From contig NZ_CP022098.1 in NCBI RefSeq assembly GCF_002305875.1, positions 4,402,001 through 4,466,000 of the forward strand: a DNA stretch of 64,000 nt, read 5' to 3'. How positions within the stretch are numbered: the first letter of the stretch is position 1; each line of letters starts with the position of its first letter. The position numbers and the translations under genes were made by a program. Shown here piece after piece: positions 1 to 63,559 of this stretch. Source of the DNA: Cystobacter fuscus (GTDB lineage: Bacteria > Myxococcota > Myxococcia > Myxococcales > Myxococcaceae). The notes beneath the pieces were generated by a model. It was not told the DNA's origin, made no database searches, and saw nothing but the letters and a program-made list of their open reading frames with translations.

Positions 1-2448
1 AACAACTCCTACGGCAATGACATCGTCGGGCTGGCGTGGATCACGTTCGATCCGAGCACGGGGACGGCCGGCGGCGCGACGCAGACGCTCTACGTGGGGG
101 TCGCGGACAAGGAGAACAACATCTTCCGCAGCACGGACGGCGGCGCCACCTGGGAGGCGATTCCCGGCCAGCCCGTCGGCTATCTGCCGCACCATGGTGA
201 GCTTGCCTCCAATGGCAACCTCTACATCTCCTATAGCGATGGCGTCGGGCCCTACGATGGCGCCAAGGGAGATGTCTGGAAGTTCAACACCCAGACGGGT
301 GTCTGGACGAACATCAGCCCCGTGCCGAGCAGCAGCACGGACAACTATTACGGCTACGGTGGTCTCGCCGTCGATGCTCAGCACCCGGACACGCTCGTGG
401 TCGCCACGCTGAACAGCTGGTGGCCGGATGCCAAACTCTTCCGCAGCACGAACGGCGGTGCGACCTGGACGGCGATCTGGGACTGGGATGGCTACCCGAG
501 CCGGAAGCTCCGCTACACGCAAGACATCTCGGGGGCCCCCTGGCTGTCGCTGGGCATCGAGCCCATCCCGCCGACTCCTTCTCCCAAGCTGGGTTGGATG
601 ATCGGGGATCTCGAGATCGATCCCTTCAACTCCAACCGGATGATGTACGGCACGGGCGCGACCCTGTATGGCACGAACAACCTGACGGACTGGGACAGCG
701 GCGGCAAGGTGAACATCTCCGTCATGGCCAGGGGCATCGAGGAAACGGCCATCATGGAGCTGATCAGCCCGCCGGCTGGAGCGCCGCTCCTCAGCGCGAT
801 GGGTGACATTTCCGGCTTCCGTCATGATGACCTGACGGCGCCGCCCGCCAAGACGATGTCCGTGCCGGCGTGGAGCACGACGTACGGCATCGACTACGCG
901 GAGCTCAACCCGGGCTTCACGGTTCGTGTGGGAATGGCGGATTACGCGGCGGATGCCAATGCCAGGTCGGTGGGCCTCTCTCATGACGGGGGAGCGAACT
1001 GGTACAAGGCGTCCTCGGAACCGACGGGAACGAAGGGCGGGGGAACGGTCTCGGTCTCGGCCGACGGCAACGCCATCGTGTGGAGCACGTCGGATGTGGG
1101 GGTGTACTACTCGAAGTCGGGCGGCAATTCCTGGACGGCCAGCAGTGGCATTCCGGCGGGGGCGAAGATCGCTTCCGACCGCGTGAACCCGAGCAGGTTC
1201 TACGCCTACTCGGCCGGCAAGTTCTATCTCAGCACCAACGGAGGCGCCACGTTCACCCAGACGGCCGCGGCGGGCCTTCCCAGCGGCGGCGCCGCCTCGC
1301 TCAAGGCCGTTCCTGGCCGCGAAGGTGACGTCTGGTTCGCTGGTGGCAATGAGACCCCCGGCCCCTACGGTCTGTGGCATTCGACCGATTCCGGCGCGAC
1401 CTTCACGAAGTTGGCGAACGTGCAGGAGGCCGACGGAGTCGGGTTCGGGAAGGCGGCGCCGGGCCAGAGCTACATGGCCCTGTACGTCATCGCCAGGATC
1501 GATGGTGTGCGCGGTTTCTTCCGCTCGGACGATGGGGGCGCTTCCTGGGTGAGGGTGAATGACGCTCAGCATCAATACGCGAGGGTCACGACGATCACCG
1601 GAGATCCGCGGGTGTACGGCCGCGTCTATGTGGGCACGAATGGCCGTGGCATCGTCTATGGCGACCCGGTGGGCGGTACGCCGGACCCGGACCCGGATCC
1701 GGTCAAGCAGTCGACCATCAGCCCGACGAGCTCATCCTTCGACAAGAAGACGGGCAATCAAGCGGACATCACCGTGACGATGACGCTGAACGGGAACACC
1801 TTCGGCGGCATCAAGAATGGCACGGCGACGCTCGTGTCCGGCACGGACTACACCGTCTCCGGCTCGATCGTGACCCTGTCGAAGAGCTATCTGGCCAGGC
1901 AGCCGGTCGGGACGACGAGCCTGACCTTCCAGTTCAGCGCGGGCACGTCCCCCGTTCTGGCCATCACGGTGATCGATACGACCTCCACTGGCTCGGGGAA
2001 CATCAAGGTGCAGATGTACAACGGGTCCACGGCGGCGACCGTCAATGGCATCAGCCCGAGGTTCAAGCTGCTCAATACGGGAACGAGCGCCATCACGCTC
2101 TCGACCGTCAAGCTCCGCTACTACTACACCATCGACGGAGAGCAGGCGCAGAGCTTCTTCTGTGACTGGTCCCATGTGGGTGGCTCGAATGTCACCGGAA
2201 CCTTCGTCAAGATGGCGACACCGGCCACCGGCGCCGATCACTACCTCGAGGTTGGCTTCACGAGTGGGGCAGGCAGCCTCGCGGCCGGGCAGAGCATCGA
2301 GATCCAGATCCGGTTCTCCAAATCCGACTGGAGCAACTACACGCAGTCGGGCGACTACTCCTTTGCCTCGGCGGGCACCACGTATGCGGACTGGAGCAAG
2401 GCGACCGGCTACATCTCTGGCGGCCTCCAGTGGGGCCTCGAGCCCTGA
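1..2448 (+). CDS. Secreted GH74 xyloglucanase with CBM_X2 and CBM3 modules, 5'-truncated
   Basis: The reading frame is open from base 1, so the signal peptide and the start of the catalytic domain lie outside the window; 815 residues remain. Seven Asp-box (BNR) motifs of the type STDGGATW or SxDGGAxW are spaced through residues 35-540, the hallmark of the two seven-bladed propellers of GH74 endo-xyloglucanases. A Pro-Asp linker (PDPDPDP) leads to a CBM_X2/Ig-like module (about 568-660) and a C-terminal family 3 cellulose-binding module (about 666-815) with the typical YYYTIDGE and FCDWSHVG strands. The enzyme should cut plant xyloglucan outside the cell while held on cellulose. A strong hairpin terminator follows. 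The family call is firm; endo versus exo mode cannot be told. Confidence 0.9.
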   Translation, partial: NNSYGNDIVGLAWITFDPSTGTAGGATQTLYVGVADKENNIFRSTDGGATWEAIPGQPVGYLPHHGELASNGNLYISYSDGVGPYDGAKGDVWKFNTQTGVWTNISPVPSSSTDNYYGYGGLAVDAQHPDTLVVATLNSWWPDAKLFRSTNGGATWTAIWDWDGYPSRKLRYTQDISGAPWLSLGIEPIPPTPSPKLGWMIGDLEIDPFNSNRMMYGTGATLYGTNNLTDWDSGGKVNISVMARGIEETAIMELISPPAGAPLLSAMGDISGFRHDDLTAPPAKTMSVPAWSTTYGIDYAELNPGFTVRVGMADYAADANARSVGLSHDGGANWYKASSEPTGTKGGGTVSVSADGNAIVWSTSDVGVYYSKSGGNSWTASSGIPAGAKIASDRVNPSRFYAYSAGKFYLSTNGGATFTQTAAAGLPSGGAASLKAVPGREGDVWFAGGNETPGPYGLWHSTDSGATFTKLANVQEADGVGFGKAAPGQSYMALYVIARIDGVRGFFRSDDGGASWVRVNDAQHQYARVTTITGDPRVYGRVYVGTNGRGIVYGDPVGGTPDPDPDPVKQSTISPTSSSFDKKTGNQADITVTMTLNGNTFGGIKNGTATLVSGTDYTVSGSIVTLSKSYLARQPVGTTSLTFQFSAGTSPVLAITVIDTTSTGSGNIKVQMYNGSTAATVNGISPRFKLLNTGTSAITLSTVKLRYYYTIDGEQAQSFFCDWSHVGGSNVTGTFVKMATPATGADHYLEVGFTSGAGSLAAGQSIEIQIRFSKSDWSNYTQSGDYSFASAGTTYADWSKATGYISGGLQWGLEP

Positions 2449-13867: not shown

Positions 13868-13878
13868 AGGTGCCGACC

Positions 13879-31002: not shown

Positions 31003-31067
31003 CGCGGGGCGGGCTCCGCATGCCTGGAGGACTGGACTTCGCCTCGTGGAGCGGAGAGCATTGGGTC

Positions 31068-31466: not shown

Positions 31467-31620
31467 CGTTCGGCCTGCCCAGCATATCGCGCTCTTCGGA
31501 GCAGTTCCCAACCCATGTTCCCAAGTAGACCCTGCGGCCTGGTTGCTCTGGCGGAATTCTACTGGTGCACGCTACCGTATCTTGCTGGACACATAGCCAA
31601 ACAGGTACTGGGGGGATGCC

Positions 31621-32127
31621 GTGTGCACTTCAAGACGACTCGCACGAATGTTTGCATTCATGCCTTTGTTCGTGCTGCTCTCCGGATGTGCCGCTGGAGC
31701 AACAAGGACTTGGGTTGAAGGGGGAGTGAGACCGAGCCACTTCCAATTCAAGGATGTTGTTCCTCTGCAAGACGAGGAGGCCGGGGGCTGGCGGGCCGCT
31801 TGTCTTCACGTTGGCATCTTGAGAGATATCACGGAAGAGTTGGTTTACTGCAAGTTTGGCGTCGAAGTACCAATCAAGAACAAGAAGCAGGGCTTCATTC
31901 CCGTAGATGTGGCACAAAGCCGAGCTGCAAGCTGCGCTAATGCAGTTGCTTGGGAGACGCTCGGGGCTGCTACGCTTGCAACGCCCATAGGTATTGCGTG
32001 CGAGCAGTTCAAGACGCTTTATGGACTAACTCTTAGAGAGGTTATCCTGGGATCGCGCGTCACGTCCATTTGTTATCCAGGGGTTGAGCCTGTCATTCTC
32101 ACTCCTCGCGTTTCGCCTGTCAGGTGA
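31621..32127 (+). CDS. Lipoprotein of an accessory two-gene module
   Basis: 168 residues; signal peptide with lipobox LLSGC, so the mature protein begins at Cys about residue 23. The body has ACLHVGILRDITEELVYC and KFGVEVPIKNKKQGF, then SCANAVAWETL and ATPIGIACEQF, with five further Cys residues. I do not recognise a named family but believe similar lipoproteins occur with the same downstream partner in other myxobacteria. GTG start with GGGGGA upstream. Base composition is visibly lower in GC than flanking core genes. Confidence 0.6.
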   Translation: MCTSRRLARMFAFMPLFVLLSGCAAGATRTWVEGGVRPSHFQFKDVVPLQDEEAGGWRAACLHVGILRDITEELVYCKFGVEVPIKNKKQGFIPVDVAQSRAASCANAVAWETLGAATLATPIGIACEQFKTLYGLTLREVILGSRVTSICYPGVEPVILTPRVSPVR

Positions 32128-32131
32128 TGTC

Positions 32132-32710
32132 ATGTCTTCGTCTCTTGAGCAGTTGATTGCGGTCGCGAGCAGATACTGGCCATCAAATAGAAATGGCGAC
32201 TATCGTCCGGGCCAGCAGATCAGTCCCGAAGCCAGGCGGCTTCATGAGTTGTGGGAACAGGAAATCAAAAATATAAATCGCTGGTGGGCATTCCTTGATG
32301 AGCTCAGGGGTGAGTTGCCCGGATTTTCCATTGGCGATGCCACCGCGACGCCCGATGCTTGTTTCCGTTGTGTCGTATACCCCGATAAGGGACGCCCGTT
32401 GCCAGACCTTCATTGGGTCGTTGTTGGTTGCGTGAGCATTATTGCCCCGGTTTATGCCGTCTATGGTGTGCAGTTCGAAGACCGGGAGAAGACGCGGGTT
32501 TTCAGGGCGATGGACTTTGAGCTTCAGCGACCCGAGATAAAGGCGCCTGCTGAAGTCATTGCAAGGAGAGTCGAAGCTAAGTTTGGATTCACCCGGCTTC
32601 CGCGCGAGATGGCACAAATGCCCGTTTCGCTGTTCGTACAATGGAAGGAGCCTCCAGAAACCACATTGTTTCACGCGCTCTTCACGAACGAACCAGAGAA
32701 CGTCCCTTGA
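32132..32710 (+). CDS. Cytosolic partner of the preceding lipoprotein
   Basis: 192 residues, no signal peptide, unrecognised family. The start MSSSLEQLIAVASRYWPS lies four bases after the lipoprotein stop, so the pair is translationally linked. Landmarks are WVVVGCVSIIAPVYAVYGVQF in the middle and PPETTLFHALFTNEPENVP at the end. A secreted lipoprotein followed at once by a soluble cytosolic protein is the usual layout of toxin/immunity pairs, but no toxin domain is visible. A hairpin terminator follows. Confidence 0.55.
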   Translation: MSSSLEQLIAVASRYWPSNRNGDYRPGQQISPEARRLHELWEQEIKNINRWWAFLDELRGELPGFSIGDATATPDACFRCVVYPDKGRPLPDLHWVVVGCVSIIAPVYAVYGVQFEDREKTRVFRAMDFELQRPEIKAPAEVIARRVEAKFGFTRLPREMAQMPVSLFVQWKEPPETTLFHALFTNEPENVP

Positions 32711-32720
32711 CTTCAACGAA

Positions 32721-32754
32721 GAGAGCCTCCTCAGCCGACGACGAGGAGGCTCTC
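32721..32754. terminator. Hairpin terminator after the lipoprotein/partner pair
   Basis: A perfect 12-bp stem with a 10-base loop between convergent genes. The AACGAAGAG sequence before it and the CCTCCTC stem recur at 36445-36480. Confidence 0.75.
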
Positions 32755-32779
32755 ATCGAACGTAGCCTCCAGGCGGTGC

Positions 32780-33079
32780 TCAAGACTTCTTCAGGAACCG
32801 GAGGGCTTCTCGGTTGATTCGCTTCAACTCGGCGACCTGCTCATCAGTCGGCGGTCCGTCAACCAGGAAGATTCCTCGCCTTGCGAGTGGAAGCTCCAGC
32901 TCGATGGCCGTTTTGAGTTGTGCGAACAGATCTGGGTCCTCGGGAAACAGTTCCCGTGCCTCGCGCTCCACTGTTGGGTCCTGGGAGAGCGCTTCAAGCT
33001 TCTTGGCGTCATGTCCCGCTTCGGCGCGAATTGCGTCAATCTTCGCAAAAAACCACCTTGAGCTGGCTCGCGTCTTCAT
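32780..33079 (-). CDS. Small hypothetical protein
   Basis: 99 residues, charged and probably alpha-helical: SRWFFAKIDAIRAEAGHDAKKL, then TVEREARELFPEDPDLFAQL and ELKRINREALRFLKKS. It has no signal peptide or known motif. A strong AGAGGAG lies six bases before the ATG, and the codon pattern is ordinary. It sits alone on its strand within the toxin/immunity-like island. Confidence 0.6.
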   Translation of the reverse strand: MKTRASSRWFFAKIDAIRAEAGHDAKKLEALSQDPTVEREARELFPEDPDLFAQLKTAIELELPLARRGIFLVDGPPTDEQVAELKRINREALRFLKKS

Positions 33080-33185
33080 CTGGCACTCCTCTTGAATTGT
33101 CTCTCAATCCATCCGCGACCCAGATTCCAGGCTCCCTTGTCGGAGGAAGCACTCGCGTGTTCGGCGAGCGGTCGATGGGTGCGAT

Positions 33186-33347
33186 TTACTCGCCCGGCTG
33201 GCCCATCATGGGTGCCCCCGCTCCTGCGGGGACGTACCGGGGAACAGGCACTGGGATGGACGGAGCAGGAGGTGGAGCTGGCGCCACTGCCTGGGCATGA
33301 ACCGCCGTGGCGACCAGCACGCCGAGCCCCATCACACGGAAGGTCAT
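33186..33347 (-). CDS. Small exported Pro-rich protein
   Basis: 53 residues. Signal-like start MTFRVMGLGVLVATAVHAQA, then a Pro/Ala/Val-rich tail (VAPAPPPAPSIPVPVPR). ATG at 33347 is chosen for the AGGAG eight bases upstream over a longer start at 33401. Probably a secreted or periplasmic peptide of no known function. Confidence 0.5.
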   Translation of the reverse strand: MTFRVMGLGVLVATAVHAQAVAPAPPPAPSIPVPVPRYVPAGAGAPMMGQPGE

Positions 33348-33419
33348 TCCGAAAACTCCTACTTGAAACGTCATGCCCCGCGCTTCTACCTTCGTTTTCA
33401 TCGCCCAGGCAAGGTCACC

Positions 33420-33659
33420 CCGGGGCGCCTACAGTGCGTTCCCGCCGCCTGTGGTGATGTGCTCGCGGCCGCCCGGGAGTTGCTCCACCTCCTGCCGCCA
33501 CCCAATGGCGTTGAGACGGTAGAAAGCAAGGGAGACTGGCTGCTGGAAGTGTATCGCGACCAGGCCTACAAGTACGAGATGCTCTCCGGAACGGAGTCGA
33601 ACCTGGCGCGGCATGGTCGGCGCATGGCGGGCGAGTTCTTCCGGATGCTCACCTTCTGA
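33420..33659 (+). pseudogene. 3' fragment of a toxin-like gene
   Basis: The frame ending at 33659 encodes LAAARELLHLLPPPNGVE, DWLLEVYRDQAYKYEML and the tail GTESNLARHGRRMAGEFF. No good start codon or signal precedes it; upstream sequence is antisense to the small Pro-rich gene. Its last 74 bases recur at 34347-34420, in both cases 11 bases before a paralogous immunity-like gene. It is best read as the C-terminal end of an effector whose 5' part was lost. The fold is not recognised. Confidence 0.5.
33586..33659 (+). repeat. 74-bp direct repeat, first copy (toxin-like 3' tail)
   Basis: Identical to 34347-34420 and ends at a TGA stop. It marks one edge of a tandem duplication of tail plus immunity-like gene. 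Confidence 0.92.
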
Positions 33660-33670
33660 AAGGGGCGGGG

Positions 33671-34303
33671 ATGGATTCGCTCGGGAACATCGTCTTCAAA
33701 GATCGGGAAATTGAAAACGAGCGGTTGGAGCTGACGGATACGAAAGCCAACTACATCCTCGGCCCCAGCCTGACGATGAGGAACTGTACCCTCGTGCTAA
33801 AGGTGTCCGCCCGGCGCCTGAGCCTCAAGCTGCCCCGGTTCATCGACTGCACCTTCGAGGTGAAGCAGGAGTTGAAGAACTACCAGAGCTGGGTGGCAGC
33901 ATCCCTGAAGGGCTGCCGCTTCAAGGGGCGGCTGTCGGGGTGCGACTTTGGGTACTGGCCTGAATACATGGACCTGCCGTGGTATCAACACGGGTCCATC
34001 GAGGACTGCGACTTCACTGAGGCCCGGCTGGCAGGGTGTCGGTTTCACGCCTGCGACATCAACACCCTTCGCTTCCCCAAGTGGCCCTGCTTTACCTTCC
34101 TTGACCCCATTGGCCGAGCCCCCGAACTACGCAGCGTTAAATGGCCGGGAAGCTTTGGTGATATCGTCGTGGACAACCTGCATACTCACCCTCCGTCCAC
34201 CAAGGCCTTGACTTATTACGCTCCCTCCGCTGCCGAGCGTTTCGAGACCACCCCCGAGGAACTCCGAGCCGTCATCGAGAAGTTCGACTGCATCTTCTAC
34301 TGA
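33671..34303 (+). CDS. Pentapeptide-like putative immunity protein, paralog B
   Basis: 210 residues. It shares with paralogs A and C the blocks ENERLELTD, NCTLVLKVSARRL, RFIDCTFEVKQELKN, LKGCRFKGRLSGCDFG, DCDFTEARLAGCRFH and FPKWPCFT. It differs by LDPIGRAPELRSVKW and a short insertion (MDLPWYQ). Start ATG with AAGGGGCGGGG upstream, 11 bases after the toxin-like tail. No signal peptide: a cytosolic protein, as expected for immunity. Function is inferred from context only. Confidence 0.65.
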   Translation: MDSLGNIVFKDREIENERLELTDTKANYILGPSLTMRNCTLVLKVSARRLSLKLPRFIDCTFEVKQELKNYQSWVAASLKGCRFKGRLSGCDFGYWPEYMDLPWYQHGSIEDCDFTEARLAGCRFHACDINTLRFPKWPCFTFLDPIGRAPELRSVKWPGSFGDIVVDNLHTHPPSTKALTYYAPSAAERFETTPEELRAVIEKFDCIFY

Positions 34304-34346
34304 CGGGACGGTGGGCTTGATCCGTTTTAGTGGCTCTCCCACAGTT

Positions 34347-34420
34347 CCGGAACGGAGTCGAACCTGGCGCGGCATGGTCGGCGCATGGCGGGCGAGTTCT
34401 TCCGGATGCTCACCTTCTGA
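34347..34420 (+). repeat. 74-bp direct repeat, second copy (orphan toxin-like tail)
   Basis: Identical to 33586-33659. Here only the last 24 codons of the toxin-like gene remain, followed after 11 bases by paralog C. Confidence 0.92.
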
Positions 34421-34431
34421 GAGGTCGGCGG

Positions 34432-35055
34432 ATGCTCTACAACAAGGTCTTCTACCAGGGCCAGGAAATCGAGAACGAACGACTGGAGCTGACCGACAAA
34501 GGCTCGCTCTACTTCCTCGGCTCGGGACTGACGCTCCGCAACTGCACGGTCGTCGTCAAGGTCTCGGGGAGGAACCTGTTTCTGACCGGCTCCCGTTTCA
34601 TCGACTGCTCTTTCGAGGTGAAGCAGGAGCTGAAAAATCACCAACAGTGGGTAAAGGCTTCCCTCAAGGGGTGCCGCTTCAAGGGGCGGCTAACAGGGTG
34701 CGACTTCGGGCACTGGCCCGACTACGGTACAGGATGGGAGCACGGGGCCATCGAGGACTGCGACTTCACCGAGGCCCTCCTGGATGGCTGCCGCATCATG
34801 GGCGCAGACCCCACCACCCTGCGCTTCCCCAAGTGGCCCTGCTTCACCATCCTGGACCCCATCAGGCGAGCCCGCGAACTCAACAGCGTCCAGTGGCCGG
34901 GGGGTTTTCGCCCCATCATCGTGGAGGGTCAGTACAGGGATCCTCCCTGCACGACAGCTGTAACGCTCTACGCTCCATCTCTCGCCAAGCGCCGCGAGAC
35001 GACCGAGGACGCATTCAGAGCGGCCATTGAGCAGTTCGACTTCATCGTCTACTGA
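34432..35055 (+). CDS. Pentapeptide-like putative immunity protein, paralog C
   Basis: 207 residues, closest in length to paralog A and in context to paralog B. Blocks: ENERLELTDKGSLYFLG, NCTVVVKVSGRNLF, RFIDCSFEVKQELKN, LKGCRFKGRLTGCDFG, DCDFTEALLDGCRI and FPKWPCFTILDP. It differs from B mostly at the C-terminal half, as immunity paralogs with different specificity do. Start ATG at 34432 behind GAGGTCGGCGG. Cytosolic, no known motif. Confidence 0.65.
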   Translation: MLYNKVFYQGQEIENERLELTDKGSLYFLGSGLTLRNCTVVVKVSGRNLFLTGSRFIDCSFEVKQELKNHQQWVKASLKGCRFKGRLTGCDFGHWPDYGTGWEHGAIEDCDFTEALLDGCRIMGADPTTLRFPKWPCFTILDPIRRARELNSVQWPGGFRPIIVEGQYRDPPCTTAVTLYAPSLAKRRETTEDAFRAAIEQFDFIVY

Positions 35056-35118
35056 CGGAACCGTGTGGCGTGTATACGTCTCTTGCGATGCCCACCTCGC
35101 CGGTGTAGCTTCGGTCAG

Positions 35119-35780
35119 ATGAAAAGCACGAATTACGACTTGGTCCTCGGGACAGGGGTCCTCCTGGGGGTGCTCGTATTAGGCTGTGCATCGGGACCGG
35201 CTACGCTGGAGCTGACCGACGACGCGAGCAGCCATGAGTCCGCAGGGATGAGCGGCGGTACTTTTTATCCCGCCATCGAAGAACTCAACCGGTACGTTCT
35301 CGTCATCCAAGAGTCCCCAAGCGGTCACGTCACGCACAGTTGGCGTCCTGCGGAGGAGCTTGACCTTTCGTCATTCAGGTTCCAGCCCCGCACCGAGAGA
35401 ACACACGGGCGCTCGTGCTTGCGGCTGCTGCTAGACGCCGCGACTGCGATGAAGAGAACCGTCAGTGCGTCAGTGAGTGTATGAGCACCCCAGTCCCCCG
35501 GGGATACGGGCACATGACAACTCCGGATCGTGGGAAGGGCGGGAAAAAAGAATATTGTGAGCGTCGATGCATGCAACCCTATCTAGATTGCAAGAATGCG
35601 CAGGGAGAGCGCGTTCTGGAGTTTTCGACCGCGAGCAAAGCGGTTGATTGGTTGAAGCGATACCATCAGGAGATTTTATTGGGAGGCGTTGTCGTCATCG
35701 CAGGGGTTGCTTTTGTCGCGGTTGCCTCCGGTGGAGGCGCACTGATTCTTGCTCCGGTCTTGTTGTTGGCAGCATCATGA
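35119..35780 (+). pseudogene. Lipoprotein with C-terminal hydrophobic domain, frameshifted near 35413
   Basis: The first frame (from ATG 35119) gives a lipoprotein signal LLGVLVLGCAS and a mature part with FYPAIEELNRYVLVIQESP. At 35413 the sense moves to another frame: VLAAAARRRDCDEENRQCVSECM, YCERRCMQPYLDC, then WLKRYHQEIL and two hydrophobic stretches. One missing base restores GR-x-VLAAA. The joined protein has about 220 residues. Cys-rich central blocks and a membrane-seeking end suggest an exported effector or envelope protein; no family is recognised. The frameshift could also be a sequencing error. Confidence 0.55.
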
Positions 35781-35816
35781 GCCCTGCGGCGGGTTCCACA
35801 CTTTGGCGGCGACACC

Positions 35817-36401
35817 ATGGCAATCGGAGACCTGATCAATAACGCGGTGGATCTCCTCGGACGAGTCGACGAGAAGACCCAGTCCCCGGAGGAGCACGAG
35901 TTGCTTCGTGCTGCGGCCGACGCGCTCAGATTCATCTGGGCGAATGGGCTGTCATATGAATTCATGGACTATCGGGAGAGCCTCGAGTTTGAGTCGCCGC
36001 CCCCGGTGGTTGCCGCTTTCAAGACGCGCGAGGAAGCGAATTCCTGGCTGGCCAACAACCCCAGGCCGCCGGCCATGGCTTATGTCCTGATCTCGGGCGA
36101 GTACCATGTGGTGGCGTATCGTCGCGAGAGCGATTGGCGCACCTTCCTCCCGCATCCAACCCTTGAGTTTTATCTTGAGGAGATGACGAAAGACGGCCTC
36201 CCTTCGGTGGTGGTCACATTCAACACCCGTGAGGAGGCAGATGCTTGGTTTGGAAGTCAGTCGGAGCCGTCAGCGCAGACGGTCATTCAGATCGGGGGCG
36301 AGCACTATCTGGCGGTGTACTATCGAAACATCAAGCACCGCGCCATCTTCCCCTTCTCCACGGCCAAGAGGCTAGAGAAGAAAGAGGAATCGGGACAATA
36401 G
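35817..36401 (+). CDS. Partner protein with two tandem TREEA-type repeats
   Basis: 194 residues, cytosolic. Two internal repeats are visible: VAAFKTREEANSWLANNP with YVLISGEYHVVAYRR, and VVTFNTREEADAWFGSQ with VIQIGGEHYLAVYYRN. The N-terminus MAIGDLINNAVDLLGRV is helical. I believe the same protein follows the same lipoprotein in other myxobacterial genomes, but no function is known. It lies 36 bases after the frameshifted lipoprotein; a lipoprotein/soluble partner pair again suggests effector and protector. Confidence 0.6.
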   Translation: MAIGDLINNAVDLLGRVDEKTQSPEEHELLRAAADALRFIWANGLSYEFMDYRESLEFESPPPVVAAFKTREEANSWLANNPRPPAMAYVLISGEYHVVAYRRESDWRTFLPHPTLEFYLEEMTKDGLPSVVVTFNTREEADAWFGSQSEPSAQTVIQIGGEHYLAVYYRNIKHRAIFPFSTAKRLEKKEESGQ

Positions 36402-36456
36402 AAGCGGCGGCCCAGCAATACGCGCTCGATTGCCGGGTGGTTTGAAACGAAGAGGA

Positions 36457-36480
36457 CCTCCTCGCTCGGTGACGAGGAGG
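36457..36480. terminator. Hairpin between convergent genes
   Basis: An 8-bp perfect stem CCTCCTCG with an 8-base loop, preceded by AACGAAGAG as at 32716. No U-run. Confidence 0.6.
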
Positions 36481-36505
36481 CTCCCTTCTCGATGGTGGGG
36501 TCGGA

Positions 36506-37417
36506 CTAGGGGATCTCGATTCCCCTGATTCTGAGTCTCTTCCCCGAGTCATCCCGTAGGAGCAGCTCGCATTCTACAGATGTCCAGGCGGATGGAGCTT
36601 CCATCTCGATGATGACCATGAACGCCACGTTCACCTCGGGCATCGCTTGCTGCCAGGAATGGACAATCGGCCAATCCCCGTGGGGGAGGAGCCGTACTTC
36701 TATACCGATGTTGTTCCAGGGGATCGAACCCAAGTTCACCAGCCAGAGTTCAATGGCTATACGGTACTTGGAGCGATAGCTGACCCCCTTGTCGACGCGG
36801 AGCTCGTTGCCCTCTTGTCCAATCAGTGACTTCTTGAAAGTCCGGGCACGGATGCCCTCTCGAGTCATGGAGTGGCTGTAAATCAGCCAATGCAGTTGGC
36901 GGGGATCCGCGTACTTCTGACGAAGTTGCTCGAGTTCGAGCCGCAATCGGGCCAGCTCTTGCTGGCTGCGTTGCCTTTCCACGCGTTCCTGCTCCAATTC
37001 GCGTTCGAAGGATTCGCGAGTTCGCGTATCGCGGAACACCTCGACTTGTCGGGTGGACTGGTCGGGAGACGCCACCAGGAACAGCGTGAGGGCGTCCTCC
37101 GGGTGGTTTCCATCCACGTAGCGAGCCGACAAGCGAAGCCGTTCGCCAGGAGCCATGTCCTTGGGGGGCATGACATTGATGCTCGTGCGACCACGAGAGA
37201 CCTCTTCGAACCGGAACTCTTCTTGCAGTTCCACCAAGACGGGTTCATCGAAGACAACTCCTGTCATGCGTCCAGGGCTGACGCAGATCTCGTGGGGAGT
37301 AGGGGCTGTTCTCGTTCGTTCGATACGCTGAATCTCTTCACAGTCCATGTGCCCAGGAGGGGCGGGGTTCTGTGTCAATGAGAGTGTCAGTATGAGCGGC
37401 AGGGCGGTCGCGAGCAC
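36506..37417 (-). CDS. DUF2381 family protein beside a Ser/Thr kinase
   Basis: 303 residues; GTG start with GGGAGA about nine bases upstream, 16 bases after the kinase stop. A weak signal peptide (MLATALPLILTLSLTQ) is followed by the family's N-terminal beta domain (EICVSPGRMTGVVFDEPV), the central coiled coil (about 130-170, many Glu/Arg/Gln) and the C-terminal beta domain ending LLLRDDSGKRLRIRGIEIP. It is the canonical neighbour of a kinase, unlike the orphan copy at 12935-13867. Its role is unknown; a periplasmic partner of the kinase's outer part is plausible. Confidence 0.78.
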   Translation of the reverse strand: MLATALPLILTLSLTQNPAPPGHMDCEEIQRIERTRTAPTPHEICVSPGRMTGVVFDEPVLVELQEEFRFEEVSRGRTSINVMPPKDMAPGERLRLSARYVDGNHPEDALTLFLVASPDQSTRQVEVFRDTRTRESFERELEQERVERQRSQQELARLRLELEQLRQKYADPRQLHWLIYSHSMTREGIRARTFKKSLIGQEGNELRVDKGVSYRSKYRIAIELWLVNLGSIPWNNIGIEVRLLPHGDWPIVHSWQQAMPEVNVAFMVIIEMEAPSAWTSVECELLLRDDSGKRLRIRGIEIP

Positions 37418-37433
37418 GGGTCAGGCTCTCCCA

Positions 37434-39191
37434 TCACCGGCTGGGGATCGGACGGAATTCAGGCATGGTCCTGAGCCGCACGGCGGGAGGGAGCAATGGG
37501 TTGCTGCGCGTCCCTCCGTATGTCTCCACACCGGGTTCATCCAGGCCGCCATCGTCCATCTCCATGCAAATCGGCATGGGTTTTTCGCCCGGGAGAGTGA
37601 CCTCGGTGAATCGACCATAGACACGGTTCTCCCGGGTATAGAGTTGTCCCTTGAAGATCGTGCGCCTGGGGATCGCGTCCTGCGTCCTCTGGGGCACGTT
37701 GCTGATTGGGAGGGGAAGGATTTTGGGTTCGGTGATGACCGGACCGGACTTCACGTAAATGAATGAAGTGAAGTCATTTCCTCTCACGTAGCTCATCAAC
37801 CACACCTTGACATCCTCGGTCGGACCGAGGCCCAGACGCTCACGGGTCTTCTCGCTGCCAGCGGGGCAGGGTTCAGCGGGCATCGGAGGGGCAGGCTTCG
37901 GCCCGCTCACACAAGCGGGAGCCGTGCAGACAGCGGCAGTGGCCGCAGCGGTGATGATCAGACGATTCTTCGGAGAGGGACGCATGGGTATTTCCGCGGG
38001 GTTCGTCGCCTGGGCGACGGGCGCGGGGGGTGGTGACTTCTGAAGTCCCGCGCTGGACACAACTTCTCCCGTCATGTCGACCTCCGCCATTTCATGGCGA
38101 GAAACCTCCTGGGACGTTGGCAGCAGCACGGTGGACTTTTGAAGTGGGGTCGCGGGAGCGAGGAACAGGGCCGCGAGCGCGCCCAACGCGAGGGCCATGT
38201 GCCGCCGCCGCAACTCGGACGCCAGGGGGAACTCGGGCTCCGGCATGAGGGGAAGGCAGGGCTCCGCTGGAGGCAGCGGCTTGCGGCCTCCGTCGAAGAG
38301 GGGCTCGTCCCACGCGGCATCGGCTCCGGCGAGGGCGGCCTTCAAGTCGAGCTCGAGCGCGGACGCATCGGCGGGGCGCTCCGCGGGCTCCTTCGCCAGC
38401 AGGCGCAGGCACAGCTCGCCCACTGTCGCGGGCACGCGCGGATTGCGCACGTGGGGAGGCTCGGGTGCGTCCTCGAGGATGGCTTGTGCCAGGGAGCCGT
38501 GGCGATCGCCGAAGGGCAGGGTGCGCGTGAGCAGCGCGTAGAGGGTGACGCCCAGCGCCCACAAGTCGTCCCCGGGCCGCCCCGGCGGTGGCTCTCCCTC
38601 CCACTCGCGGGCGAAGCGCACCACCTCGGGGCTGCGGTACTCGGGGGTGCCCGGCGGCAGCCGCAAGGTGAGCCGATGCGCGCCCTCGAACCCCGCCGCG
38701 CCGAAGTCCACCAGCACCGGATGGCCGTCCTTCCGCCGCATCACGATGTTGGCCTCCTTCACGTCCCGGTGCACCACGCCCGCGGCATGCAGCTGGCCGA
38801 GCGTGGACACCAGCGGCAGCATCACCTGGGTGAGCAGCTCGGACGTGCTCGGGTTGAACTCCCGCGCCCAGGTGTCCAGCGCGACGCCTTCCACCAACTC
38901 CAGCGCCAGGACGATGAAGCGCGGCTTCTCCTCGGGCCACAGGCCATAGCCGTGGAAGCCCACCACGGGCAGATCCTGCACCCGCCGCAGCGCGTCCACC
39001 TCCCGCTCGCCCCGCGCGTCCCGGGGCACCAGCTTGATGGCGAAGCGCTTGACACCCCTTCGGGCCTGGTACAGCGCGCCGAAGCTGCCAGCCGCCAGCC
39101 GCCTCTCGATGATGAAGCCGGCCACCTCCGCTCCGGGCAACAGGTTCAACCCGAGCGGCTCGTCCGGCACCTCATCCCTCGCGATTCTCAT
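37434..39191 (-). CDS. Ser/Thr protein kinase with lipoprotein-like C-terminal tail
   Basis: 585 residues. The kinase domain (22-310) is complete: AAGSFG loop (33-38), Lys53, HRDVKEAN (Asp143), DFG (162-164) and GTPEYRSPE. A transmembrane helix lies near 332-348. From Met403 the sequence restarts like a lipoprotein: MRPSPKNRLIITAAA, then a TAPAC lipobox, and a domain homologous to the free lipoprotein at 13879-14367. Either this is one fusion protein, or an internal start makes a separate lipoprotein of about 183 residues. The kinase start has GGAGGAGGGTGGG before ATG. Operon with DUF2381 downstream. Confidence 0.82.
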   Translation of the reverse strand: MRIARDEVPDEPLGLNLLPGAEVAGFIIERRLAAGSFGALYQARRGVKRFAIKLVPRDARGEREVDALRRVQDLPVVGFHGYGLWPEEKPRFIVLALELVEGVALDTWAREFNPSTSELLTQVMLPLVSTLGQLHAAGVVHRDVKEANIVMRRKDGHPVLVDFGAAGFEGAHRLTLRLPPGTPEYRSPEVVRFAREWEGEPPPGRPGDDLWALGVTLYALLTRTLPFGDRHGSLAQAILEDAPEPPHVRNPRVPATVGELCLRLLAKEPAERPADASALELDLKAALAGADAAWDEPLFDGGRKPLPPAEPCLPLMPEPEFPLASELRRRHMALALGALAALFLAPATPLQKSTVLLPTSQEVSRHEMAEVDMTGEVVSSAGLQKSPPPAPVAQATNPAEIPMRPSPKNRLIITAAATAAVCTAPACVSGPKPAPPMPAEPCPAGSEKTRERLGLGPTEDVKVWLMSYVRGNDFTSFIYVKSGPVITEPKILPLPISNVPQRTQDAIPRRTIFKGQLYTRENRVYGRFTEVTLPGEKPMPICMEMDDGGLDEPGVETYGGTRSNPLLPPAVRLRTMPEFRPIPSR

Positions 39192-58523: not shown

Positions 58524-59978
58524 ATGTACCTGGGCATCGACGTGGGGACGTCATCCGTGAAGGCCGTGCTCGTGGATGGGCACGAGCGCATCGTCGCCAG
58601 CGCCAGCGCGGCACTGGAGGTCACCCGGCCGCATCCCGGCTGGTCCGAGCAGGAGCCGGACGCGTGGGTCCGTGCCCTCGAGCACGTGCTGGACGAGCTG
58701 TCCGCCACGCACCGGGAGGCCCTGGCGGCCGTCGAGGGGATGGGGCTGTCGGGACAGATGCATGGCGCGGTGTTGCTCGGAGCGGATGACAAGCCGCTGC
58801 GCCCGGCCATCCTCTGGAACGACGGGCGCTCGGAGGCCGAGTGCCGCCTGCTGGAGGAGCGCTGTCCGCGCTCGCGCGAGCTGTCCGGCAACCTCGCCAT
58901 GCCGGGCTTCACCGCGCCGAAGCTGCTCTGGGTCGCCGAGCACGAGCCGGACGTGTTCGCGAGGACGCGCAAGGTGTTGCTGCCCAAGGATTATCTGCGG
59001 CTGTTCCTCATCGGCGACCACGTTTCCGACATGTCGGACGCGGCGGGAACGCTGTGGCTCGACGTGGCGAAGCGGGACTGGTCCGACGCGCTGCTCTCGG
59101 CCACGGGGCTCACGCGCGAGCACATGCCGCGCCTGGTGGAGGGCTCGGAGTCTTCAGGCCGGCTGCGGCCCGAACTCGCGCGGCGCTGGGGCATGCACCG
59201 GGCTCCGGTGGTCGCGGGAGGGGGAGGGGACAACGCGGCGAGCGCGGTGGGCATTGGCGCGGTGAAGCCCGGGGCGGCGTTCGTGTCGCTGGGCACCTCG
59301 GGGGTGCTGTTCGTCTCCAACGCGCGCTTCTCTCCGAACACCGAGGGCGCGGTGCATGCGTTCTGCCACGCGGTGCCTCGCACCTGGCACCAGATGGGCG
59401 TCATCCTGTCCGCGGCGGCGAGCCTGGAGTGGTTGTCGGCGCTCCTGGGCGAGCCGGCTCCCGCGCTCATCGCGGCGGTGGGGGAGCGCGTGCGGGCGCC
59501 GTCGCCGGTGAAGTTCCTTCCCTACCTGTCGGGGGAGCGCACGCCGCACAATGACGCCGGGGCGCGCGGGGCCTTCGTGGGACTGGCGCACGGGGACGGA
59601 CGCGAGGCGTTGACGCAAGCGGTGATGGAGGGCGTGGCGTATGCCGTCGCGGACTGCATGCGGGTGCTGGCCGATGCGGGGACGCGAGTGGAGCGGGCGT
59701 CGGCGGTGGGCGGGGGCTCGCGCTCACCGCTCTGGTTGAAGATCCTCGCGAGCGTGCTCGACCGGCCGTTGGATGTGCATGCCGAGGGAGACTTCGGAGG
59801 CGCGTTCGGAGCGGCGCGGCTGGGACGGCTCGCGGCGACGGGGGAGGATCCGTTCACGCTCGCCGTGCCGCCGCCGGTGGCCCGGGTGGTGGAGCCCGAC
59901 GCCGCGCTCGTTCCCCGCTACGCCGAGGAATACGCTCGCTGGCGCCGCCTGTATCCCGCTCTCCGGCAGGCGCGGTGA
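58524..59978 (+). CDS. xylB: Xylulokinase (FGGY family)
   Basis: 484 residues, full length. The FGGY start MYLGIDVGTSSVKAVLVD (ATP phosphate loop) is followed by SGQMHGAVLL (sugar site), DVSD-like SDMSDAAGTLWLDVA, GGGGDNAASAVG, SLGTSGVLF and the ADP-binding GGGSRSPLWLKILA. It phosphorylates D-xylulose for the pentose phosphate pathway, fitting the plant-polysaccharide enzyme at the window's start. ATG behind GGAGGAGGGCAGG. It is transcribed away from the dehydrogenase gene with 128 bases between the starts. Confidence 0.92.
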   Translation: MYLGIDVGTSSVKAVLVDGHERIVASASAALEVTRPHPGWSEQEPDAWVRALEHVLDELSATHREALAAVEGMGLSGQMHGAVLLGADDKPLRPAILWNDGRSEAECRLLEERCPRSRELSGNLAMPGFTAPKLLWVAEHEPDVFARTRKVLLPKDYLRLFLIGDHVSDMSDAAGTLWLDVAKRDWSDALLSATGLTREHMPRLVEGSESSGRLRPELARRWGMHRAPVVAGGGGDNAASAVGIGAVKPGAAFVSLGTSGVLFVSNARFSPNTEGAVHAFCHAVPRTWHQMGVILSAAASLEWLSALLGEPAPALIAAVGERVRAPSPVKFLPYLSGERTPHNDAGARGAFVGLAHGDGREALTQAVMEGVAYAVADCMRVLADAGTRVERASAVGGGSRSPLWLKILASVLDRPLDVHAEGDFGGAFGAARLGRLAATGEDPFTLAVPPPVARVVEPDAALVPRYAEEYARWRRLYPALRQAR

Positions 59979-60237
59979 GGAAACGAAGAGAGACGGTGGA
60001 CCCAAACCCATGAAGATGCATCCCTGACCATCTAGGCTTTTGGCGAGGTTGTGAAGACGTCGCCTGTCATCCGTATATGATGCGCATCTCATTCGACTCT
60101 CGGAATGAGTACGAGCCCTGATGAATTCTGGTGTTTGACGGCAATTTGTGGTGGAGTTGTCGCTTGTCGTTTGTAAACAACCCGCGCCGGATGCGCTGCC
60201 TCCACAAGCGCTCCAATGTCCAGGAGGGAGCTGCCTG
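59979..60237. other. Lower-GC region upstream of the ATPase/DUF4276 cassette
   Basis: 259 bases, clearly richer in A and T than the xylB gene before it. It holds no confident gene. A 10-bp palindrome GATGCGCATC lies near 60080. Its composition suggests that it came with the cassette. Confidence 0.5.
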
Positions 60238-61491
60238 ATGGTCAGCAAAACCAAATCTGCAATTCAGCCCCGTTCTAGTGGGCCGCCGCGCATTGAGTAC
60301 CTGCGAGTCGAGAACTATCGCGCCCTCAAATCCGTTGAGTTCAAGGATGTCACTCCACTCACCGCTCTCCTGGGTCCGAACGGCAGCGGCAAGTCGACCG
60401 TCTTTGATGTTTTCAATTTTCTCTCCGAGTGCTTCCAATTTGGGTTGCGCCACGCATGGGACCGACGTGGGCGCGCCAGGGAGTTGAAGACACGCGGGCA
60501 GGATGGTCCGGTCGTCATCGAAATCAAGTATAGGGAGCGCCCTGGACTCCCCATCATTACGTACCATCTGGCCATTGATGAAGGAACCAAGGGCCCGTTT
60601 GTTGCCGAGGAGTGGTTGCAATGGAAAAGAGGGTCCTATGGCGCTCCTTTCCGTTTTCTCGATTACAAGGGAGGACAAGGACGCGCCATTAGCGGCGAGC
60701 TTCCTGACGAGACTGATCTGCGCAAAGAGACGCCGCTGCGGTCGCCCGACCTGATTGCGGTCAACACGCTGGGTCAGTTTGCCGAGCATCCACGGGTCGC
60801 CGCACTCCGCGAGTTCATCACTGATTGGTACGTGTCCTACCTGTCGATCGATGACACTCGCGGACAACCAGAAGCTGGGCCCCAGGAGCGCCTCAGCAAG
60901 ACCGGTGATAACCTTCCGAACGTCATCCAGTACCTCAAGGAACAACATCCGCGTCATCTGGAGCAAATCTTCACGATTCTCCAACGTCGGGTGCCGCGCC
61001 TTGAGAAGGTATTGGCTGAACCCATGCCAGACGGTCGCCTGCTTCTTCAGATAAAGGATGCGCCTTTCGAGCGCCCGGTTTTGTCGCGTTTCGCATCGGA
61101 TGGAACGCTCAAGCTACTCGCCTATCTCACGGTACTGCATGATCCCGAGCCTCCCCAGTTCGTGGGCATCGAGGAGCCCGAGAACTTTTTGCACCCACGC
61201 CTTCTTCCCGAACTGGCGGAGGAATGCAGGGCCGCAACCGAGCGCTCGCAACTCCTGGTGACCACGCATTCGCCGTTCTTCCTCAACGCCTTGAAGCCAG
61301 AGGAGGTCCGTGTTCTCTATCGCAACGAGGAAGGATACTCTCAGGCGATTCGGGCCTCGGACATCCAGGGGGTGCCCCAGTTTGTTCAGGCTGGTGCATC
61401 CATGGGTCATCTATGGCTTGAGGGCAGGTTCAGTGTCGGCGATCCCCTTGTAAACGCGGGGGCTCCGCGGAAGAAGGGCGGGCGGGGATGA
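60238..61491 (+). CDS. SMC/OLD-like AAA ATPase of a putative defence cassette
   Basis: 417 residues. The start [18 protein letters not shown] leads to Walker [12 protein letters not shown] (about 45-54). Later come [11 protein letters not shown] (the ABC-type signature helix), [13 protein letters not shown] (Walker B with the catalytic Glu, near 307) and the switch His in TTHSPFFL. This is the AAA_21/OLD ATPase group, found in OLD nucleases, PARIS AriA, Septu and retron systems. ATG 60238 has GGAGGGAG upstream. Its stop overlaps the next start as ATGA. GC is lower than in core genes. The defence role is inference. Confidence 0.85.
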
Positions 61492-62117
61492 GTGTCGAGC
61501 ATGTAGAGGTGTTTGTCGAAGAACCATCAATGGAGGCATTCTTACGACTTGTTTTGCCGCGAATGCTCGGTGATACCTCATTCGAGGTCTACACTCACCA
61601 GTGCAAGGATGAGTTGTTGATGCGCCTCCCGGAGCGCTTGCGAGGTTATGCAAGCTGGCTCCCGGAGACGTGGCGTATTGTAGTGGTAGTGGACCGCGAT
61701 GATGATTGTGTTGCGCTCAAGTGCGAACTCGAGCGTCTGGCCTTGGAGGCTGGTCTCTCCACGAGGTCATCACCCAAGCAGAAGGGCTACTCTGTTGTCA
61801 ATCGAGTTGCGATCGAGGAGCTCGAGGCTTGGTACTTTGGCGACTGGGATGCGGTCCGAGCTGCATATCCTCGGGTAAAGCCGACCGTTCCAGCCCAATC
61901 CAAATACCGCGATCCCGATGGTATCGCGGGTGGTACTTGGGAAGCATTTGAGCACGTCCTCAAGAATGCAGGCTATTTCAAGACCGGGCTCCGGAAGATA
62001 GAGGCGGCTCGAGCGGTCGGCGAGCACATGGTTCCTTCTCGGAACCTGTCTCGGAGTTTCCAGTTTCTACGGACCGCACTCAGCGAAATGGCATCCGCCA
62101 ACTCGGGTTCATCCTGA
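61488..62117 (+). CDS. DUF4276 (TOPRIM-like) protein coupled to the ATPase
   Basis: 209 residues. Acidic residues fall where a TOPRIM/OLD-like nuclease needs them: [12 protein letters not shown] (Glu11/Glu12), then [11 protein letters not shown] (Asp69, Asp71-73), then [12 protein letters not shown] (Glu110-113). This is the DUF4276 family pattern, where the first Glu belongs to a VEG/VEE motif. With the ATPase it gives a split version of the ATPase-TOPRIM pair of OLD proteins and PARIS. It is translated from an ATGA overlap, so both are made together. The nuclease role has not been shown for this protein. Confidence 0.78.
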
Positions 62118-62225
62118 GACATCCCCGGCGGACGGTTCGCCAGATAGCAGCCCACCAGGCAAGCGCTCGCTGCCCATGGCTCGGGAACGCCCCACCTTTA
62201 CCTTCCCACCATGGGAGGGAAGGCC

Positions 62226-62510
62226 ATGACGAAGACGAAACTGCTGCTGGCGGGTCTGCTCACGGGCGCGGTGGCACTCGGCACGGGCTGTGCGACCACG
62301 TCCACCCGGGACACGGAGCCGCCCTCGCCCACCTCGACTCCAGGCATCGGCGGCGCGGGGCTCGATCCGAACCCGGACCACAACATCCCCAACGCGCCCA
62401 ATGGCATCGACGGCGATCCGCTCAGCAACCCGGGCACCCCGGCTGCTCCCGCCAACGCGCCCGACCCGGCCGGTGCGGTCGACTCCGGTGAGAGCCTGCC
62501 TCAACGCTAG
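62226..62510 (+). CDS. Small disordered lipoprotein
   Basis: 94 residues. Signal peptide with lipobox ALGTGC, then a Pro/Asn/Asp-rich mature part (DPNPDHNIPNAPNGIDGDPL) with no fold visible. Strong GGAGGGAAGG before ATG 62226. The last 27 codons and the terminator recur at 63435-63552. Such short lipoproteins are common in myxobacteria; function unknown. Confidence 0.7.
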   Translation: MTKTKLLLAGLLTGAVALGTGCATTSTRDTEPPSPTSTPGIGGAGLDPNPDHNIPNAPNGIDGDPLSNPGTPAAPANAPDPAGAVDSGESLPQR

Positions 62511-62548
62511 ACGTCCCCTCGCCCTCCACTCGAGAGGGCGAGGGAGCA
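62431..62548 (+). repeat. 118-bp repeat, first copy (lipoprotein 3' end and terminator)
   Basis: Matches 63435-63552 (offset 1004) with only a few substitutions, covering the coding end and the hairpin. Confidence 0.85.
62516..62544 (+). terminator. Terminator of the small lipoprotein
   Basis: An 11-bp perfect stem CCCTCGCCCTC with a 7-base loop, six bases after the stop codon. A copy lies at 63520-63548. Confidence 0.85.
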
Positions 62549-62638: not shown

Positions 62639-63337
62639 CTACCGTGCCGAGGCCCGCCGGGCCGACGACTTCGAGGCAGTCCTCTTCTTCCCCGTGGTCT
62701 TCTTCGCGGCGGCCTTGCCCAGCGGCTTCTTCGCCGTTTTCCTGGTGGCAGCCTTCTTCTTCGGCGCCGGCGCCTCTTCTTCCTCCGCGGCTTCCTCCTC
62801 GTTCGCCTCCTCCGCGACGGCCTGAACGTTCTTTTCGTTCTGCTTGCGGAAGCGGTTGAACGCATCCTTGGAGAAGAGCGAGCTGCCCTCGGCTTGGGCT
62901 CGCCGGAACACCTCCTTCAGGCTGTCTCCGGTGAGGCCCGGGTTCTTGAAGTACTCCATCGCCACGCGGCCCATGGCCCAGTTGGCGGCGAAGGCCGGTG
63001 CCACCGTGAGCATCGCGCCGAAGATAGGAATGAGCGCCTTGATGCCCTGCCGCGCCAGCAAGCCCAACCCCGCGGTGGTCCCCAGCTCGAGGATGAGATC
63101 CCGAGCCGACGCCTTGGTGACCTTCCGTCCGTAGATGTGCCCCACGGTCATGACCATGCCGGTCTGGAGGGGCAACATCAGCACCACATCCGACAACGGG
63201 ACGGGCGAGATGGAGACCACCGCGGCCGCGTACGAGCACATGTTGATGACATCTCTCGCTGCCTTGTCCCGGCTCTCCGAAGACACCTTGCTGAAGTCTC
63301 GCGTCCGGATGTCATCCAACGTGTCGAGCCACGACAT
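62639..63337 (-). CDS. DUF697 protein with a histone H1-like basic tail
   Basis: 232 residues. Residues 20-150 match DUF697, a hydrophobic domain (INMCSYAAAVVSISPVPLSDVV, LQTGMVMTVGHIYG, GLLARQGIKALIPIFG, FAANWAMGRVAMEYF) thought to sit in membranes. After an acidic stretch (EEANEEEAAEEEEAP) the last 45 residues are a Lys/Ala/Thr/Pro tail of histone H1 type (KKKAATRKTAKKPLGKAAAKK and on). A membrane domain joined to a DNA-binding type tail is unusual. ATG 63337 has AGGAG six bases upstream and is preferred over ATG 63343. Confidence 0.8.
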   Translation of the reverse strand: MSWLDTLDDIRTRDFSKVSSESRDKAARDVINMCSYAAAVVSISPVPLSDVVLMLPLQTGMVMTVGHIYGRKVTKASARDLILELGTTAGLGLLARQGIKALIPIFGAMLTVAPAFAANWAMGRVAMEYFKNPGLTGDSLKEVFRRAQAEGSSLFSKDAFNRFRKQNEKNVQAVAEEANEEEAAEEEEAPAPKKKAATRKTAKKPLGKAAAKKTTGKKRTASKSSARRASAR

Positions 63338-63434
63338 GGTCATCTCCTGGTAGGCTGGAGCGCCGAGCATACGTCGCAAGTTGCACGTTGAACACGGCGC
63401 GCATCGAGAGCGGCCGTTCTTCAAGAAATCCTGC

Positions 63435-63552
63435 CGGGCACCCCGGCCGCTCCCACCAACGCGCCCGATCCGGCCGGTGCGGTCGACTCCGGTGAGAGCC
63501 TGCCTCAACGCCAGACGTCCCCTCGCCCTCCACTCGAGAGGGCGAGGGAGCA
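63435..63552 (+). repeat. 118-bp repeat, second copy (orphan lipoprotein 3' end and terminator)
   Basis: Copy of 62431-62548 without the 5' part of the gene: the coding remnant carries no start. It contains the hairpin 63520-63548 and lies between the DUF697 start and the end of the PfkB gene, where the hairpin may serve as the PfkB terminator. Confidence 0.82.
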
Positions 63553-63559
63553 CTCCCGC

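Follow-up and report, generated by a model that had tools for sequence, protein, structure and literature searches.

A HEC-01-type ABC ATPase/DUF4276 gene pair in Cystobacter fuscus as a probable two-gene defence module with a predicted TOPRIM nuclease

The combination of an ABC ATPase with a Toprim domain recurs in OLD, Gabija, retrons, AbiL, MADS and PARIS, according to the available text of PMC12409363, which also describes AriA of PARIS as sequestering AriB. For the OLD nuclease BpOLD, the available part of PMC6755086 assigns metal A to E400, D455 and D457 and metal B to E404, T506 and E508, and has K562 acting near the scissile phosphate. Salmonella BREX carries an ATPase/DUF4435 pair between pglX and pglZ (PMC9009780, available part), and TOPRIM-linked OLD-ABC pairs have already been published as BREX accessories (PMC12839542, available part). 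The name HEC stands for "Hma-embedded candidate" (PMC12988326), and the available text of the same source reports several HECs, HEC-06 among them, as active in a preprint's assays. In the papers we searched, a scope that left preprints aside, there was no experiment on HEC-01 and no anti-phage assay of it; literature searches on DUF4276, on MADS and on ABC ATPases/TOPRIM/DUF4435/RloB gave no result.

We analysed a 64,000-nucleotide stretch of the Cystobacter fuscus genome (the window), where the initial annotation had picked out an ATPase gene and a DUF4276 gene, coupled by an ATGA overlap in a lower-GC patch between core genes, as a candidate anti-phage system. The cassette does consist of two overlapping ORFs on the + strand, 60238-61491 (417 aa) and 61488-62117 (209 aa), coupled in this way, and the GC content is 56.6-57.3% in 60001-62000 against 67-73% across the 3 kb to the left and the 2 kb to the right. 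The description "between core genes" has to be refined, since the flanks are metabolic (sugar-use) genes and not universal core genes. The source genome, a single contig of 12.35 Mb, contains one match to the DUF4276 protein. In window positions, the locus is laid out as follows.

58524..59978, + strand: FGGY carbohydrate kinase gene, here xylB (xylulokinase-like), the left landmark (Pfam FGGY_N 1.2e-71, FGGY_C 5.4e-29)
59979..60237, no strand: leader from xylB to the ATPase gene, 259 bp, carrying AGGAGG; single copy, with no second copy elsewhere in the genome
60238..61491, + strand: HEC-01A, ABC ATPase of the OLD/PtuA/AriA kind, 417 aa (Pfam, PADLOC, structure model)
61488..61491, + strand: ATGA start/stop overlap of both genes (ORF calls; in 46 of the 82 paired loci the overlap is estimated at 4 bases)
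61488..62117, + strand: HEC-01B, DUF4276 protein, predicted TOPRIM nuclease, 209 aa (Pfam, PADLOC, AlphaFold2, Foldseek, VIA-align)
62118..62147, no strand: right edge of the insertion; the match to the empty site of a congener (G002) picks up at 62148

We assigned the label xylulokinase by eye. The ATPase ORF runs from an ATG at 60238, preceded by AGGAGG at 60222-60227, to a TGA ending at 61491. An alternative GTG start at 60148 is also open and would give a longer protein, but it falls in DNA without a counterpart in the sister genomes G001 and G003. To the right of the cassette are a small ORF without a Pfam match, a DUF697 ORF, a PfkB kinase, a mannitol dehydrogenase and a sugar-type ABC transporter. 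Of the 19 genes called over 20 kb rightward of window position 62000, the six scanned with Pfam are concerned with sugar use or transport, and the rest were judged by eye. A scan of 55 window genes recognised no other defence system near the window copy, and besides HEC-01 it returned mainly broad kinase-type models (both among the matches listed, 25 of 83 families). We saw no local defence island, and the pair is surrounded by sugar-use genes.

Three other places in the window deserve mention. A 119-bp direct repeat (97%) at 62430-62548 and 63434-63552 brackets the body of the DUF697 ORF (62639-63553, minus strand), and nothing in the compared G001 and G003 stretches matches the DNA between its two copies; this is a second insertion flanked by a duplication, 0.3 kb to the right of the cassette. 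Positions 7533-14957 hold a run of ORFs that match nothing in four compared G003 stretches, partly at low GC (58-61%), and form another variable block. A second low-GC block (55-61% per kilobase) lies at 30000-38000, where dS against G003 is very uneven, from 0.03 to 1.4.

Both proteins find their best PADLOC match in one system. For the ATPase this is HEC-01A (PDLC04182, 2e-163), with residues 17-402 on profile positions 2-404 of 406, and for the DUF4276 protein it is HEC-01B (PDLC04202, 6.4e-87), with residues 5-203 on positions 2-202 of 204. Behind HEC-01A, the systems ranked next for the ATPase are AriA (PDLC02980, 1.4e-30), PDC-M07A (5e-26), AbiLi (4.3e-25), PDC-M25A and mad3 (2e-21). At E up to 1, the DUF4276 protein hits 10 PADLOC families, every one of them HEC-01, and no AriB or AbiLii profile. 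Judging by these profile matches, the pair is already catalogued in PADLOC-DB as HEC-01A/HEC-01B and is not a new system type. The suggestion that a DUF4276 version would be a split or third variant of the OLD and PARIS layouts is not supported, since PADLOC-DB already has the pair and the available part of PMC12839542 already covers the BREX accessories. In two PADLOC models the labels are swapped (the ATPase model PDLC04144 is called HEC-01B and the DUF4276 model PDLC04143 HEC-01A), perhaps as gene-order variants.

On Pfam the ATPase matches AAA_21 (3.3e-31, above cut-off). Foldseek places its structure model (pLDDT 88.8) nearest to PtuA/Septu and retron effector ATPases, and VIA nearest to SMC/Rad50 heads and PtuA (Z 19-22); by sequence the ATPase matches the solved structures of PtuA (1.3e-14), OLD (8.7e-12), GajA (about 1e-4) and AriA (6.5e-4). 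Its motifs were placed on an alignment of 79 sequences (A4), for which loci with an ATPase cut by a contig end were dropped.

60373..60396, + strand: Walker A GPNGSGKS, residues 46-53; K52 invariant in A4
61096..61107, + strand: ABC signature-like SDGT, residues 287-290; invariant in A4
61171..61185, + strand: Walker B region EEPEN, residues 312-316; E312 in at least 90% and the others invariant in A4
61267..61269, + strand: H-loop His344; invariant in A4

The closeness of the ATPase model to SMC/Rad50 heads (Z about 20-22), together with weak matches to RecF models, could suggest a chromosome repair or maintenance function like that of RecF or Rad50. We consider this very unlikely, because the pair is present only patchily: DUF4276 matches turned up in 14 of the 98 relatives searched and, at a stricter cut-off, in 20 of 195 genomes of the phylum (own genome counted both times), and the congener has an empty site.

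The second protein matches DUF4276 on Pfam (PF14103, 5.6e-28, above cut-off). We aligned 83 sequences (A3: the window copy and 82 loci, leaving out L086, whose start is too short). A sequence search of solved structures gave a best chance match of E 0.43 with A3 and none with A1. The AlphaFold2 model made from the 83-protein alignment has a pLDDT of 90.7 and a pTM of 0.89. With Foldseek, its sole PDB match below E 0.001 was the C-terminal (TOPRIM) region of B. pseudomallei OLD (6nk8; E 7.5e-4, probability 1.00), with modest TM-scores of 0.43-0.44. VIA-align ranked OLD TOPRIM entries at Z 10.6, 10.0, 9.9 and 9.5, PH0156 at 9.5, the PARIS chain 8ux9_A at 8.7 (taken as AriB by exclusion, chain B being AriA), GajA at 7.1 and the next row at 6.6. 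A VIA-align Z under 8 may reflect merely a common arrangement, so the GajA match is of little weight. As the OLD TOPRIM rows and the PARIS chain stand above the unrelated rows, HEC-01B is predicted to have a TOPRIM fold; a DUF4276 protein without one was rejected on the AlphaFold2 model and the OLD TOPRIM and AriB structure matches. The reading of the pair as ATPase plus TOPRIM has thus come through the comparison with OLD TOPRIM (Z 10.6-9.5) and AriB (8.7) that the initial annotation proposed.

The acidic motifs that had first suggested TOPRIM are identical in all sequences of A3, and they are listed here with the other conserved positions.

61518..61520, + strand: E11, TOPRIM glutamate, 83 of 83
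61692..61700, + strand: DxD motif D69-R-D71, both D in 83 of 83
61815..61826, + strand: E110-E111-L112-E113, helix start, each in 83 of 83; placed like T506/E508 of BpOLD
61995..61997, + strand: K170, Lys in 82 of 83; placed like catalytic K562 of BpOLD

In BpOLD, E400, D455/D457, T506/E508 and K562 follow one another in the same order and at roughly the same distances. With 4..203 aligned to 393..594 by VIA, E11 falls on E400 and K170 no more than one residue from K562, so that K170 would be the K562 equivalent by position; the equivalences of the DxD motif and of the E110-E113 helix are suggested by order and spacing. At the place of BpOLD E404, 75 of the 83 HEC-01B sequences have Met15 by sequence count, from which the second metal site is possibly built differently, with E12 or E16.

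Both sister genomes carry the pair at the same site as the window. In the congener G002 the site is empty: the kinase gene is followed by 28 bases and then by the DNA found after the cassette in the window. Four further genomes (G010, G030, G031 and G017), which contain the kinase gene, show no DUF4276 match in any part of the genome. The DNA that follows xylB is variable. A 191-bp segment between xylB and the ATPase gene (60026-60216), single copy in the genome, is present in the window and absent from G001 and G003. A TsiV-type gene (type VI immunity for VRR-NUC) was observed at the same site in both, at L042:5768-6571 in G001; in G003, L041:4628-5992 and 5668-6567 hold the TsiV-type gene and an ORF without a Pfam match, which may be its toxin partner.

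Against G003 the two genes have a dS of 0.50 and 0.47 (0.45-0.49 against G001 and G003 in another comparison), and against both sister copies a dN/dS of 0.05-0.09, which we read as purifying selection. The dS of xylB against G003 is 0.145, and among 42 other ORFs compared with G003 (one of them a wrong-strand call) it is at most 0.15 in 36 and 0.18-1.43 in six. From dN/dS and the dS pattern, the cassette alleles seem to be functional, and either to predate most of the DNA around them or to have been exchanged independently of it. We also considered whether low GC might explain the pair's high dS: the low-GC ORFs at 32780-33079, 36506-37417 and 35817-36401 have 0.03-0.12, but four others reach 0.31-0.41 and one partial match 1.43, so the pair is not alone in the window in this respect.

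The window copy could still be decaying. It alone among the 83 sequences lacks one codon, in the loop right after the DxD motif, and both sister copies retain this codon; with the 191-bp upstream difference, the loss might have left the copy weak or silent, and a scan upstream of the ATPase gene found no sigma-70-like promoter. That scan, however, covers one promoter type only, and both frames are open, D69 and D71 are kept and dN/dS is 0.05-0.09, so we think decay unlikely.

The flanks of the cassette offer a lead on how it arrived. Directly after the DUF4276 stop, G001 has a 226-bp duplicate of the 3' end of xylB (96%) and G003 a 40-bp remnant; the window copy has no flanking repeat. The first 190 bases of the G001 fragment agree with its own full gene at 187 positions and with the window at 181, and the last 37 bases, small numbers, with the window at 33 and with its own gene at 30. 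On these counts it looks as if the full xylB of G001 had received a new 3' end. On the insertion reading given below, the cassette would have supplied xylB of both sister genomes with a new 3' end and displaced the old one to its far side.

We looked for such repeats around other cassettes. A first, looser test (2-kb flanks, repeats of at least 25 bp, any orientation) found them in 14 of 88 cassettes and 13 of 228 shifted controls. Under a tighter rule, set after that outcome (500-bp flanks, direct repeats, gene-boundary controls), direct repeats lie on both sides in 8 of 88 cassettes against 0 of 205 controls (Fisher p 5e-5), and inverted repeats in 0 cassettes and 1 control. The 88 were drawn from 95 cassettes, seven being left out with under 250 bases on one side, and some loci are metagenome bins. 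The eight repeat-flanked cassettes amount to seven independent sites, because L041 and L042 represent a single site shared by two sister species. The repeats are 37-437 bp long and often neighbouring gene ends: the kinase gene's 3' end in L041 and L042, hsdS-like tails in L086 and L107 (by eye, without a Pfam match), the 5' portion of a gene for the ribonucleotide-reductase small subunit in L136 (Pfam 1.3e-89), and gene ends judged by eye only in L054 and L056. The L108 repeat is not tied to any gene end. Among six further loci, L179 has a 50-bp repeat with approximate edges. We tentatively suggest that HEC-01 might be a minimal mobile cassette that inserts at gene boundaries, duplicating a neighbouring gene end (37 to 437 bp) without an integrase of its own; we regard this as possible rather than probable. 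If true, it would be a recurrent route of small defence genes into metabolic operons and other defence loci.

One Latescibacteria chromosome (L136:6134-11790) has two ATPase/DUF4276 pairs in tandem, separated by a truncated ribonucleotide reductase small-subunit gene, with a full copy after the second pair (437 bp repeat, 99.5%).

Across the genome and viral collections, 82 of 83 DUF4276 loci have an ATPase homologue directly upstream on the same strand, so the pairing is not due to chance; at the exception, L068, a contig end leaves only 142 bases upstream. The 80 genome loci are the best 80 of at least 539 confirmed relatives that a single peptide pattern picked out, so the sample is weighted towards close relatives. 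A quickly built tree of 76 ATPases (viral loci and fragments dropped; phylum labels from record titles, many of them metagenome bins) takes in 13 named phyla including Archaea and requires 26 label changes against a minimum of 12, with 32 of its 73 inner branches open. Its nine Myxococcota need 7 changes, its two Methanosarcina copies form one clade, and the nearest relatives of the window pair include Myxococcota. The spread of HEC-01 across phyla is patchy. Elsewhere we found few relatives: one weak match in phage records, three viral contigs and 10 plasmid records.

In some of these loci, genes next to the pair belong to known defence systems. Among the 25 commonest families listed, the 73 upstream neighbours scanned include at least eight matches to Specificity_I and at least seven to PglX, and the 80 downstream neighbours at least eight to PglZ, two to type I REase and two to PDC-S05. 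By BLAST the pair lies directly between PglX and PglZ in six loci and adjoins at least one of them in nine. For 97 control genes at least 6.5 kb away, no family reaches more than two matches, and Specificity_I, PglX and PglZ are absent (among the matches listed, 25 of 81 families). Single scans confirmed the Specificity_I neighbour in six loci (L070, L074, L095, L097, L100 and L141), and three PglX proteins scanned singly did not match the Specificity_I model. L101 has PglZ and no PglX match, its upstream gene being without a PADLOC match, and L096 contributes no upstream gene to the set. Adding the nine loci to the eight gives a lower bound of at least 17 of 83 loci that touch BREX or type I specificity genes. 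L067 has Drt4 upstream of the pair, and the upstream gene of L090 matches a dGTPase model. Nine of 20 upstream neighbours scanned singly, picked by size and position and not at random, match no PADLOC model at 1e-20. The initial annotation proposed a test for enrichment in defence islands; a defence setting was seen in some relatives, inside BREX or beside type I restriction-modification genes, and not at the window locus. The opposite outcome, homologues mainly in core operons with a housekeeping role, was partly checked, through the neighbours classified in the same 17 or more loci.

A toxin-antitoxin-like or stress module would have the same two-gene layout. HEC-01B would then be toxic and HEC-01A would restrain it, stabilising the DNA around it or serving a general stress response, much as AriA sequesters AriB in PARIS (PMC12409363, available text). 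Locally this agrees with a lone insertion whose site also has TsiV-type immunity genes in G001 and G003. We judge it improbable, because the PglX-PglZ position in six loci and the hsdS-type neighbours in at least eight point to defence, although stabilisation and defence are not mutually exclusive.

Taking these observations together, we believe that the pair is probably a HEC-01 two-gene defence module, in which a sensing ATPase would control a TOPRIM nuclease. By analogy, a PARIS/OLD-like sensor-nuclease is the most likely description, and the two roles are inferred from fold, residues, pairing and setting. HEC-01A would assemble with HEC-01B and control the nuclease while sensing a phage-dependent signal. 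HEC-01B would use two metal ions to cut nucleic acid; E11, D69/D71 and the helix with E111/E113 would coordinate them, and K170 would lie close to the scissile phosphate. As in PARIS, the sensor may hold the effector until triggered, and by analogy with PARIS and OLD, activation might cleave tRNA or DNA and halt infection, probably to the detriment of the cell itself. The complex, its trigger, its substrate and its anti-phage outcome are all inferred for HEC-01. The predicted fold and putative active site strengthen the anti-phage reading.

DUF4276, so far named as a domain of unknown function, thereby gains a predicted fold and catalytic site, and HEC-01, a pair found across 13 named phyla, within BREX and beside restriction-modification genes, is now directly testable by point mutation. 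The flanking duplications are a lead on how small defence modules insert, and we consider them the part most worth following.

The known systems can be set against the window pair one by one. Septu PtuA and the retron effector ATPases are the closest solved ATPases, by structure with Foldseek and by sequence. The partner nuclease of Septu PtuA and of the retron system is an HNH protein (PtuB), not a TOPRIM protein. Gabija has a UvrD-like GajB helicase as its second gene; the nearest neighbours we identified here are an FGGY kinase, a small ORF without a Pfam match and a DUF697 ORF, with no helicase among them. The ATPase profiles of AbiL, MADS (mad3) and PDC-M07 match the window ATPase (4e-25, 2e-21 and 5e-26). 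Membership of AbiL was rejected, with AbiLi at 4.3e-25 the only match and no AbiLii for HEC-01B at E up to 1, and so was MADS, where the NCBIfam model MADS3 gave the ATPase 111.4 bits, far under its cut-off of 420. OLD nucleases of class 1 and class 2 (GajA among them) share the ABC ATPase plus TOPRIM and the order of catalytic-type residues, and the OLD TOPRIM is the best fold match; OLD is one chain, whereas HEC-01 is two ORFs, and where class 2 has the second metal-site glutamate E404, HEC-01B has mostly Met15 by sequence count, for which E12 or E16 may substitute. PARIS, like the window pair, has separate genes for an ABC ATPase and a TOPRIM nuclease, with 8ux9_A at Z 8.7, and the PARIS-like ATPase/DUF4435 pair of Salmonella BREX holds the same pglX-pglZ place as HEC-01 in six loci. 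However, the PARIS effector AriB is a DUF4435 protein and that of HEC-01 a DUF4276 protein; PARIS membership was rejected, as HEC-01B matches no AriB profile in PADLOC, and the AriA profile on the window ATPase is far weaker than that of HEC-01A (1.4e-30 against 2e-163). HEC-01 as defined in PADLOC-DB is matched by the window pair nearly end to end, and in gene order, strand and coupling; the window copy differs from it as a stand-alone insertion among sugar-use genes with a one-codon deletion in the DxD loop.
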